Of a stretch of 64,000 bases of DNA, positions 36,940 through 40,085 are shown one piece after another (positions within the stretch are counted from its first letter, which is position 1; the number at the start of each line of letters is the position of its first letter). Made by a program: the position numbers and the translations under genes. Below the pieces are notes generated by a model. That model made no database searches. It was given only the letters and a program-made list of their open reading frames with translations, and was not told the origin of the DNA. The DNA is from Williamsia serinedens (lineage in GTDB: Bacteria; Actinomycetota; Actinomycetes; Mycobacteriales; Mycobacteriaceae), in the NCBI RefSeq assembly GCF_024171725.1, contig NZ_JAMTCG010000007.1:62001-126000 (forward strand). The letters are read 5' to 3'.

Positions 36940-38337
36940 ATGACGCTGGTGGCAGGGATCGACTCGTCGACCCAGTCGTGCAAGGTGGTGGTCCGCGACG
37001 CCGACGACGGCACGCTGATCCGGTCCGGGCGGGCGTCGCACCCCGACGGGACCGAGATCCACCCCGACCGCTGGTGGGATGCACTGCAGACCGCGATCGG
37101 CGACGCCGGTGGCCTCGACGACGTCGCCGCTCTCGCGGTCGGCGCGCAGCAGCACGGGATGGTGTGCCTGGACGAGGGCGGTGCCGTCGTGCGGGATGCG
37201 CTGCTGTGGAACGACACCCGCTCGGCCGACGCCGCGTCCGCACTCGTCGACGAGCTCGGCGGCGGTCAGGCCTGGGCCGATCGCGTGGGGGTTGTGCCGG
37301 TCGCGTCGATCACCGCGTCGAAGCTGCGGTGGCTGGCCGATGCCGAGCCGGACTCCGCGGACAGGACCGCCGCCGTCTGCCTGCCGCACGACTGGTTGTC
37401 GTGGCGACTGGGCGGCGGCGACGACGTCGCCGCGGTGACCACCGATCGCAGTGACGCCAGCGGCACCGGATATTTCGCGGCAGCGAGCGGCGACTACGAC
37501 CGTGAGCTGCTGCGGATGGCGTTCCGCGATCGCGACCCCAGGCTGCCCCGGGTGGCGGGTCCCACCGAGGTCGTCGGCGAGACGTCGGCGGGCGCGCGGA
37601 TCGCGCCGGGCGCCGGCGACAACGCGGCCGCGGCACTGGCCGTCGGGGCGCGACCCGGCGACATCGTCGTGTCCCTCGGCACGTCGGGGGTGGTGTCGGC
37701 GGTGTCGGGGACGCCGACGCACGACGGATCCGGCTACGTGGCAGGCTTCGCCGACGCCACCGGACGCCACCTGCCGTTGGTGTGCACGCTCAACGGTGCA
37801 CCTGTCCTCTCCTCGACCGCCGCGATGCTGGGCGTCGACCTCGATCGCCTCGCCGCGTTGGCCCTCGGCGCACCGTCGGGGGCGGAGGGCGTCGTGATGG
37901 TCCCCTACTTCGAGGGCGAGCGGTCGCCGAATCTGCCCACCGCACAGGCGAGTCTGAGCGGGCTGACCCTGCGGACCGCGCGACCGGACCTCATCGCCCG
38001 GGCGGCCGTCGAGGGCCTGCTGTGCTCCCTGCGCGACGGCCTGGACTACATCCGCGGCTGCGGGGTCCAGGCACGTCGCATCCTGCTCGTCGGCGGGGGC
38101 GTGCGATCGGAGGCGGTGCGGGCGATCGCGCCCGTCGTGTTCGGCCTGCCCGTCGCGGTGCCGGCACCCGGCGAGTACGTCGCCGACGGTGCCGCCCGTC
38201 AGGCCGCGTGGGCACTGTCGGGTGCCGAGAACCCGCCGGAGTGGGCCGCGCCCGTCACCGAGACCGTCGAGGCCGACGAGGACCCCGCCGTCATCGAGCG
38301 CTACCGCGAGGCGCGCGCCACGCTCTACGGCATCTGA
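36940..38337 (+). CDS. xylB: FGGY family carbohydrate kinase, xylulokinase-like
   Basis: ATP-dependent ketose kinase, probably D-xylulose to xylulose-5-phosphate. The 465 residues have [18 protein letters not shown] (phosphate-1), [20 protein letters not shown], the ATP-site [11 protein letters not shown], and the second signature [16 protein letters not shown]. Its ribosome site (GAGGTG) overlaps the treY stop, so it is expressed with treXY, yet its partners by function are the polyol dehydrogenases beyond the repeat array. Substrate (xylulose, fructose or ribulose) is inferred from those neighbours. Confidence 0.85.
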
Positions 38338-38348
38338 CGGGCGCCCAC

Positions 38349-38603
38349 CTCGCCGAGCGTGCTCACAACCCCTCGCCGAGCGTGCCAAAACGACTCGCCG
38401 AGCGTGCAGTAGATCGCGCGCAGCGTGCATCAGATCGTTCGCCCACATGACGATGTGCACGCTCGGTGTGCATGTTCTGCCCGCTCGGCGGCATCTGGTG
38501 CACGCTCGGCGAGGGGTTTTCGCACACTCGGCGAGGGGTTGTGAGCACACTCGGCGGCGATCATCGGCCCACTCGGCGGGGAGTTTCGGCACGGTCGGCG
38601 GAG
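38349..38603. repeat. Mirror array of 14-nt repeats with about 22-bp period; 59-nt long inverted repeat
   Basis: Eleven units occur at regular steps. Forward CTCGCCGAGCGTGC starts at 38349, 38372, 38394 and, degenerate, 38415. The reverse form GCACGCTCGGCGAG and variants start at 38457, 38479, 38500, 38522, 38545, 38568 and 38589. Steps are 21-23 bp, with 42 bp across the orientation switch. Segments 38349-38407 and 38500-38558 are complementary over 59 nt without gaps (52 of 59 match, spacers included), so either RNA strand could fold into a long stem. It fills the gap between convergent xylB and the mannitol dehydrogenase gene. No coding potential was seen, and I recognise no named repeat family. 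Confidence 0.85.
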
Positions 38604-38612
38604 TGCCCCGGG

Positions 38613-40085
38613 TCAGCGGTCGCGAAGGAGCCCCTCGAGGGTCGCTCGGGTTCCGTTCTGGCGCAACGACGTCAGAACCCGCGTGTAGGGATCCATGAAG
38701 CGCGGATCGTCGACGAGGTCACCGAAGAGGTCACGCACGCCGACGAACGCCCGCGGGTCGTCGCGGCTGTCCCGCGCGAGCGGGGTCAGCTGCTCCGCAC
38801 GCCGGTCGACGACGTCGATAGGCGTACCGTCCTCGTCGACGCCTTCCGCGTATCGCGTCCAGGTCGCGATGACCGCGGCGCTGATGTCGACCGAGCCGCC
38901 CGCGGCGAGCCTCTCCCGGACGACCGGGACCATCCACTGGGGGATGCGATCTGACGACTCGGCGCACAGTCGGGCGACGGTGTCCCCGATCGCGTCGTTG
39001 GAGAACCGCTCGATCAGCGTGTCGATGTACTCGTCGAGGTCGACACCGGGCACCGGCGGGAGGCTCGGCCGCCCCTCGGTCTGCATGTAGGCCCGCAGCA
39101 GACCCGCGATCAGCGGGTCTCGGGTCGCGTCGGCGACGGCCCGGTATCCGAGCAGATACCCGGCGTAGCACAGGGTCTGGTGTCCGGCGTTGAGCAGTCG
39201 CAGCTTCATCAGCTCGTACGGTTCGACGTCGGCGACCATCTGCACCCCGACGTCCTCGAACGCCGGTCGACCGTCGACGAAGTCGTCCTCGAGCACCCAC
39301 TGGGTGAACGGCTCGGCCACCACCGGCCAGGCATCGACGATGCCGGTCCGCCCACGCACCTCGGCCGCGAGGTCCGGCGGCGTGGCGGGCGTGATCCGGT
39401 CGACCATGCTGTTGGGGAAGGTGGTGTGCAGGTCGATCCACTCGGCGAGGCCCGGGTCGACCGCCCGCGCGAACGTGGTGAACACGCCCCGCGCCATGTC
39501 GCCGTTGCCGGGGATGTTGTCGCACGACATCAGCGTGAACGACGTGGCGCCCCGCTCCCGACGTCGTCGCAGCGCCTCGACGACGAGTCCGAACACCGTA
39601 CGGGGCACGGCGTTCGGTGCGAGGTCCGCGACGACGGCGGGGTCGTCGAGGGCGAACTCCCCGGTCGTCGAGGAGATGTTGTACCCGCCCTCGGTGATCG
39701 TGAGCGACACGATCTTCGTCGTCGGCGCGGCCATCGCCTCGATCACCGCGGCGGGATCGTCGGGGGCGACGAGCAAGTCGACGATCGCGCCCATGGTGTG
39801 GGTCTCGACCGCACCGTCGGGATGCTTCAGCGTCAGCGTGTACAGGTGGTCCTGCGAGGCGAGGGCGTCCCGCATGCGACGATCCCCCGGCAGGACACCC
39901 ACCCCGCAGATCGTCCACGGGGCCTGCGGATCCGCCCGGAGCAGGCGATCGACGTACATGGCCTGGTGTGCGCGGTGGAACCCGCCGACGCCGATGTGCA
40001 CGATACCGGGCGCGACGTCGTGGCGGGGGTACGGCGGCGTCGAATCCGCCCACCCGCGGGCCGTCTGCGTGGTCGTCTCGCTCAT
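38613..40085 (-). CDS. Mannitol dehydrogenase family protein (polyol 2-dehydrogenase)
   Basis: Long-chain polyol dehydrogenase, NAD-dependent, oxidising mannitol, arabitol or a related sugar alcohol to the ketose. The 490 residues match MtlK/mannitol 2-dehydrogenase rather than the shorter MtlD phosphate enzyme. The N-terminal nucleotide site reads HIGVGGFHRAHQAMY, SCDNIPGNGDM is the family loop, and the catalytic lysine block LMKLRLLNAGHQTLCY (K-x5-N-x2-H) is intact. ATG 40085 overlaps the stop of the sorbitol dehydrogenase-like gene as ATGA. The two dehydrogenases form an operon divergent from the ABC transporter genes. Confidence 0.92.
   Translation of the reverse strand: MSETTTQTARGWADSTPPYPRHDVAPGIVHIGVGGFHRAHQAMYVDRLLRADPQAPWTICGVGVLPGDRRMRDALASQDHLYTLTLKHPDGAVETHTMGAIVDLLVAPDDPAAVIEAMAAPTTKIVSLTITEGGYNISSTTGEFALDDPAVVADLAPNAVPRTVFGLVVEALRRRRERGATSFTLMSCDNIPGNGDMARGVFTTFARAVDPGLAEWIDLHTTFPNSMVDRITPATPPDLAAEVRGRTGIVDAWPVVAEPFTQWVLEDDFVDGRPAFEDVGVQMVADVEPYELMKLRLLNAGHQTLCYAGYLLGYRAVADATRDPLIAGLLRAYMQTEGRPSLPPVPGVDLDEYIDTLIERFSNDAIGDTVARLCAESSDRIPQWMVPVVRERLAAGGSVDISAAVIATWTRYAEGVDEDGTPIDVVDRRAEQLTPLARDSRDDPRAFVGVRDLFGDLVDDPRFMDPYTRVLTSLRQNGTRATLEGLLRDR

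Follow-up and report, generated by a model that had tools for sequence, protein, structure and literature searches.

Stoperators of mycobacteriophages are short directional sites at gene boundaries that have been proposed to stop transcription when bound; they are not known to share the sequence of the repeat core described here or to lie in phased inward-facing arrays. In placement, the arrays reported below are closest to REP and BIME elements, which are interspersed and mainly intergenic, occur in many copies, favour convergent gaps close to stop codons and are regularly grouped. Their architecture, however, is different: the unit is non-palindromic, its core CGYCGASYGKGC having no dyad (228 units tabulated by position), the units within each arm are direct tandems with at most one switch of orientation in 36/36 host gaps rather than alternating, and no Y1/RAYT transposase was found with them in 12 genomes. 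According to the accessible text of PMC3733652, most convergent REPs of two species have both neighbouring 3' ends no more than 20 bp away, and some REP families (CGTC) likewise have no dedicated transposase. Actinobacteria, Mycobacterium and Gordonia are mentioned 0 times in that article, and Mycobacterium, Gordonia and Williamsia 0 times in PMC12306157.

Strong sites of DNA gyrase (the E. coli Topo-Seq motif and BIME-2) have a symmetric centre, flanks with a period of ~10.75 bp and a location where positive supercoils gather, to all of which the arrays may correspond; in contrast, the arrays have a conserved 12-bp directional core, and the one-sided arrays have no symmetry. The accessible part of PMC6379681 describes E. 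coli gyrase sites as a 36-bp centre between two flanks with 10.75-bp GC periodicity, counts some BIME-2 elements among the strong sites and presents gyrase as a reader of DNA shape, while that of PMC5433769 reports that M. tuberculosis gyrase occupies the regions between convergent genes more strongly. BldC of Streptomyces, in the accessible text of PMC5859096, assembles cooperatively into multimers on direct repeats, which is how we propose that the arrays are bound; it is presented there as a developmental regulator, whereas the arrays lie mostly at gene ends, and the proposed likeness is in binding mode. A literature search with the core 12-mer sequences returned nothing on such arrays as judged by titles and the opening lines of abstracts, one on 22-bp direct repeats and Gordonia returned none by title among the matches listed, and searches on Williamsia or Gordonia repeats and on tandem repeats in convergent gaps of Mycobacterium gave no match with all terms; none of these searches shows absence from print.

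The array between a kinase and a mannitol dehydrogenase gene

The window, that is, the whole 64,000-nucleotide stretch of Williamsia serinedens DNA that was analysed, holds an array at 38351-38600 in which four CGCCGAGYGTGC-type units in forward orientation are followed by seven reversed ones, and which fills the gap between two convergent genes (Table 1). The product of the left neighbour is, in our reading, xylulokinase-like. The core positions confirm the unit counts and the 21-23 bp steps of the original prediction, and its ungapped pairing of the two 59-nt arms holds as well, with 52 positions matched against 28-30/59 in 12 block shuffles; the switch of orientation, which had been placed at exactly two steps (42-46 bp), is instead 40 bp from core start to core start. 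The longest ungapped arm pairing reported extends over 79 nt with 67/79 matched. Towards the centre, the spacers follow the same order in both paired arms (TCACAACCCCT, then AAAAC-type, then AGAT-type), the fourth forward core (38417) is degenerate (CGCGCAGCGTGC), and the right arm continues outward for two units beyond the paired stretch. The 28-bp centre falls within the commonest length range of the repeat family.

Table 1. Features of the array and its flanking genes, in window coordinates
Feature	Position	Strand	Basis
Carbohydrate kinase gene, FGGY family; left convergent neighbour	36940..38337	+	Script gene call; Pfam FGGY_N, FGGY_C on ORF from 36916
Leader, stop codon to first unit, CGGGCGCCCACCT	38338..38350	+	Sequence
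Left arm, four CGCCGAGYGTGC-type cores at 38351, 38374, 38396, 38417	38351..38428	+	Steps 23, 22, 21
28-bp centre, orientation switch	38429..38456	.	Length, but not sequence, often conserved between loci
Right arm, seven reversed cores at 38457, 38479, 38500, 38522, 38545, 38567, 38589	38457..38600	-	Steps 22, 21, 22, 23, 22, 22
59-nt inverted repeat, left arm	38349..38407	+	52/59 vs 38500-38558
59-nt inverted repeat, right arm	38500..38558	-	52/59 vs 38349-38407
Mannitol dehydrogenase family gene; right convergent neighbour, stop at 38613-38615	38613..40085	-	Script gene call; Pfam Mannitol_dh, Mannitol_dh_C

A repeat family in convergent gaps

The array is not the single chance copy whose finding would have ended the original idea of a repeat system. 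Across the host genome of 4.64 Mb, the core GCACRCTCGGCG has 112 matches and the reversed pattern 4, with corresponding figures of 34 and 0 for a two-unit pattern; many copies, a preference for convergent gaps, steps of 21-23 bp and, mostly, one inward switch all uphold that idea. We fetched 56 stretches around matches and 36 control stretches (720 kb), listing 100 of the 112 core matches and seeking only two-unit matches from the other 12, and called genes with a home-made script rather than a standard tool. Exact cores in the fetched stretches form 66 clusters, 25 of them within called genes (24 being single cores) and 41 in gaps; two called genes bound 38 of these 41, the remaining 3 lying at contig ends, and convergent genes flank 25 of the 38. 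A unit consists of a directional 12-bp core and a spacer of mostly 9-10 bp, and the spacers fall into two classes, one of 9 nt, often ending in GATCC (21-bp unit), and one of 10 nt that is GAAACCACC-like (22-bp unit). Of 167 unit steps, 85 are 21 bp and 77 are 22 bp. A weak preference for a CCCGG...ACYT leader is seen across 56 outer array edges.

When units were extended by phase, 36 host gaps contained at least three, of which 25 were convergent, 10 tandem and 1 divergent. The convergent share thus compares with 34/330 among control gaps (Fisher p about 2e-14), none of which (0/330) held three units by the same parser; as the control stretches were hand-picked with the match list in view, free of listed clusters and not random, this comparison covers gap type and not array frequency. 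Arrays in convergent gaps cover a median of 71% of the gap, and the median distances of their edges from the flanking stop codons are 16 and 19 bp. They are, like REP/BIME elements, extragenic and near 3' ends in convergent gaps, with an in-gene array at L170 as the exception. Orientation is inward in 21 of the 36 gaps, outward in 1 and one-sided in 14. The layout did replicate in a further 20 loci drawn from the genomes of three relatives, where 20 gaps held at least three units (two loci, L276 and L285, had no such gap): 12 were convergent, and 6 were inward, 1 outward, 1 mixed and 12 one-sided.

The outward, reverse-then-forward arrangement occurs in a tandem gap at L171:2948-3181 of the host and at L273 of a second Williamsia species (G006), between which it is apparently conserved; the two look like one locus, so that a single event may underlie the outward case. 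For one-sided arrays in tandem gaps, host and replicate taken together, 10 are in sense and 5 in antisense orientation, and since this gives no clear rule relative to the upstream gene we dropped a directional (polar) terminator for that gene as a candidate.

Beyond the host, a strict two-unit pattern was found in 16/401 genomes of the family and in 4/31 genera (g1, 6; g9, 4; g11, 4; g29, 2), with zero reversed matches among the matches listed; its absence from the other 385 genomes indicates that the system is not general. The name Williamsia is borne both by g1, the host genus, and by g11, and spacer likeness suggests that g9 and g29 are probably the Gordonia and Mycobacterium genera. With other spacers, the core recurs in other Williamsia, in Gordonia araii and in Mycobacterium ostraviense; like units are present in M. 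gastri, where, as at one of two loci in M. ostraviense, there are no more than two, lying side by side. The core is common to the genera and the spacers vary from one genus to another, with unit periods of 21 and 22 bp in g1, mostly 21 in g9, 21 in g11 and 20 in g29, which also has one 18-bp array. A search across phyla gave at least 118 stretches, from which L012, L016, L021, L029, L030, L056, L075, L076 and L083 were examined, all belonging to Williamsia, Gordonia or Mycobacterium (L012, L016 and L021 duplicate L233, L228 and L278, respectively). L076, from a Gordonia sp., lies within a called gene, and one viral-contig match (L288) has an open frame that reads as an AEKAAER repeat; in the light of these cases a two-unit match inside a gene is weak evidence, and seven codons make up a 21-bp step. 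By eye, the 20-bp arrays of named or probable Mycobacterium (L056, L075, L083, L210-L212) lie within a larger repeated cassette, GGGGAGATGGAAATCGCG ... CGCCCTAC, and farther from called genes than the Williamsia arrays.

Constraint on core and centre, and a putative protein array

The core is far more constrained than the spacers. Between neighbouring units, the ratio of spacer to core divergence was 4.5, 6.0, 6.4, 36 and 5.4 in five sets (52, 36, 42, 21 and 13 pairs), figures to be read with an estimated bias of up to about two-fold, as the seeds were exact cores. Both this test and the phase test below were designed after the data had been seen, the 20-locus set being the sole replicate.

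Measured between the end of one core and the start of the next, the centre spans 26-28 bp in 13/21 host cases, 28 bp in 5/10 cases from g11 and 18-19 bp in 4/5 from g9, and its sequence is not conserved across loci. At a 10.5-bp period, centre lengths gave R = 0.78 for the 38 centres below 110 bp that the test kept (g11 centres of 231 and 644 were left out) and, without the modal class, 0.63 for the remaining 18; these values overstate independence because missing units yield multiples of 21 and because L134 and L219 were counted twice. This suggests clustering of the lengths at 26-28 bp or at whole helical turns from that range, a result that depends on one modal value and on loci possibly sharing ancestry. 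The seven replicate centres, from the 20 new loci in three genomes, were 7, 27, 28, 33, 36, 48 and 99 bp, with phases relative to 28 of, in locus order, 0, 0, -1, -2.5, -1, 5 and -2.5 bp; with two at 27-28 bp and one half a turn out, they constitute a weak replicate. Against a phased row of sites, a 22-bp step leaves the helical phase over long arrays, and the step of one g29 array is 18 bp. At L134 (2914-3100 and 4622-4961), two similar inward arrays of the GAGTGTGC subtype lie 1.7 kb apart, and their 33-bp centre is shared by L283 from another species.

A directional core that is conserved, spacers that vary more freely, a constant step between neighbours and a preferred switch length without preferred sequence argue for a protein on duplex DNA, and placement at convergent gene ends suggests a boundary to read-through or a supercoiling site. 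We therefore put at roughly 40% the probability that the arrays are rows of duplex-DNA sites for a putative sequence-specific protein, acting as a two-way boundary of transcription or topology. Such a protein would bind each 12-bp core on double-stranded DNA, and neighbouring bound copies would contact one another along the tandem units, filling the row cooperatively. Two facing rows across the preferred centre could then give a rigid nucleoprotein block with dyad symmetry where the two genes end, and this block may stop or slow RNA polymerase from either side, fix local supercoiling, or both. Among the options named in the original prediction, an architectural protein site, here for a putative protein, is the best supported.

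If a dedicated protein does bind the arrays, it could provide a new kind of gene-end boundary and an easily tested DNA target, with a bearing on how high-GC actinobacteria, in which classic terminators seem scarce, keep convergent genes apart. We regard as doubtful the wider proposal that several Mycobacteriales genera share such a boundary system, in which a putative protein would fill inward, helix-phased arrays of 12-bp cores, the resulting blocks insulating transcription units, and in which the arrays would turn over fast in number and spacers but retain core, orientation and preferred centre.

Spreading repeat, gyrase site or RNA element

The proposed boundary has to account for L170:3001-3075, where four units at 21 bp lie in frame within a called gene of 1255 codons and are read as PAERAVD repeats. 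This is the only array inside a gene among the host stretches, and its spacer is the intergenic one. A gene-end boundary makes no sense there, which counts against the boundary explanation; arrays can evidently arise away from gene ends, as a spreading or slipping element would. The arrays could accordingly be a tolerated selfish or neutral repeat, in which a founder inverted pair of units spread and was then multiplied by slippage and recombination, convergent gaps being where insertion does least harm. Core identity fits the local tandem duplication that this predicts, with adjacent cores in an arm agreeing at 10.54 of 12 positions, non-adjacent ones at 10.36 and cores from other loci at 9.99, and the accessible text of PMC3733652 gives REPs elsewhere this same niche, close to 3' ends between convergent genes.

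Turnover among relatives points the same way. The mannitol dehydrogenase gene was matched in 8/8 genomes of the host genus, and three of them (G000, G005 and G006) have an inward array in the orthologous gap that follows. In G007, G003, G001 and G004 this gap measures 10, 22, 36 and 41 bp, respectively, and lacks an array, and in G002 the called genes overlap. Arrays were thus gained at, or lost from, this gap, and the three that are present keep core and layout and have, by eye, few spacers in common, which speaks for constraint on the core; the eight genomes provide natural pairs with and without an array. We nevertheless consider a selfish or neutral origin unlikely, as the core is far more constrained than the spacers and a preferred centre length without conserved sequence is not expected of drift. 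Moreover, the Y1/RAYT transposase family PF01797 was found in 0/12 genomes (5/14 control genomes were positive), and with the window array as query no phage, plasmid or viral-contig source emerged at the sensitivities used, the best places covering at most 20% of the array in phages and 17% in plasmids. The mobile miniature element of the original prediction thus gains from the in-frame L170 array and loses from the missing REP-type transposase and source. Should there be no dedicated protein, the arrays would still constitute a REP-like repeat family of different architecture, with no transposase found in the 12 genomes.

Gyrase is a serious rival to a dedicated protein on account of the symmetric motif with 10.75-bp flanks and of its higher occupancy between convergent M. 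tuberculosis genes, as given in the accessible parts of PMC6379681 and PMC5433769. The arrays would then be strong gyrase sites, with the centre in the DNA gate and the arms wrapped around the GyrA C-terminal domains, where positive supercoils are removed between converging transcripts. The prevailing unit steps of 21 and 22 bp are close to 2 x 10.75, and in 19 loci, which were chosen and aligned on units, the AT content of the arms has peaks at periods of 20-21 and 10.75 bp, the 10.75-bp component nearly equalling the 21-bp one, with maxima near 11, 20, 30, 41, 52 and 62 bp from the dyad. However, reading of DNA shape, as portrayed in the accessible text of PMC6379681, needs less than a 12-bp directional core kept across genera, 14/36 arrays are one-sided and the probable Mycobacterium arrays use 18-20 bp, so that we hold gyrase sites to be improbable.

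The mirrored arms would also yield a long hairpin in the transcript of either strand, and this could serve as a two-way terminator, as the original prediction had suggested, or as a block at 3' ends. The window transcript folds at -183.7 kcal/mol (z -11.5 against shuffles), and the pairing of its arms is unusually good (z -2.88 relative to 7 arm chimeras). Across 24 loci, the mean z against arm chimeras was -0.48, a mean that includes L206, whose left arm was mis-parsed at 1366 nt; values of -1.4 or below were reached at 6/24, namely the window, L175, L204, L221, L222 and the mis-parsed L206, whereas L136 and L141 folded worse than their chimeras (z 1.19 and 1.63). Over 34 loci, mirrored cores agreed at 9.96 of 12 positions (106 pairs), non-mirrored cores of the same locus at 10.04 (454) and cores across loci at 9.99 (16338). 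There is thus no general coadaptation of the arms, and the long stem is mostly a by-product rather than a general object of selection. Similarity of spacers between arms slightly exceeded permutation (46/2000 for 18 host loci; 67/2000 for 9 g11 loci), and perhaps the arms are at times copied onto each other, the window being possibly such a case.

Intrinsic-terminator signals, a GC-rich hairpin followed by a T run, are not enriched at array ends in a home-made scan: a hairpin with at least four T was seen at 3/50 array ends against 8/68 control convergent ends, and with at least five T at 1/50 and 0/68, while hairpins with T tails at tandem control ends numbered 10/110 and 3/87. Their rarity at the sampled ends implies that the genome needs other means of termination or tolerates overlap. 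No Rfam family exceeded its gathering score in window positions 37900-39000; the best match, the MIR8788 microRNA precursor at 38353-38509, reached 29.9 bits against 124 needed and is read as an artefact of the long hairpin. With no excess of mirrored-core identity, one-sided arrays in 14/36 gaps, no enrichment of T tails and 21 inward arrays against 1 outward where a bare hairpin would form from both alike, an RNA element is the least probable of these explanations, and the terminator acting through a long RNA stem is weakened accordingly.

As a separate observation, the convergent gaps at L157:2517-3106 and L275 are flanked by classic hairpins and contain, by eye, a second inward repeat, GTTCGCACGC.../...GCGTGCGAAC, which suggests that other repeat families share the convergent-gap niche.
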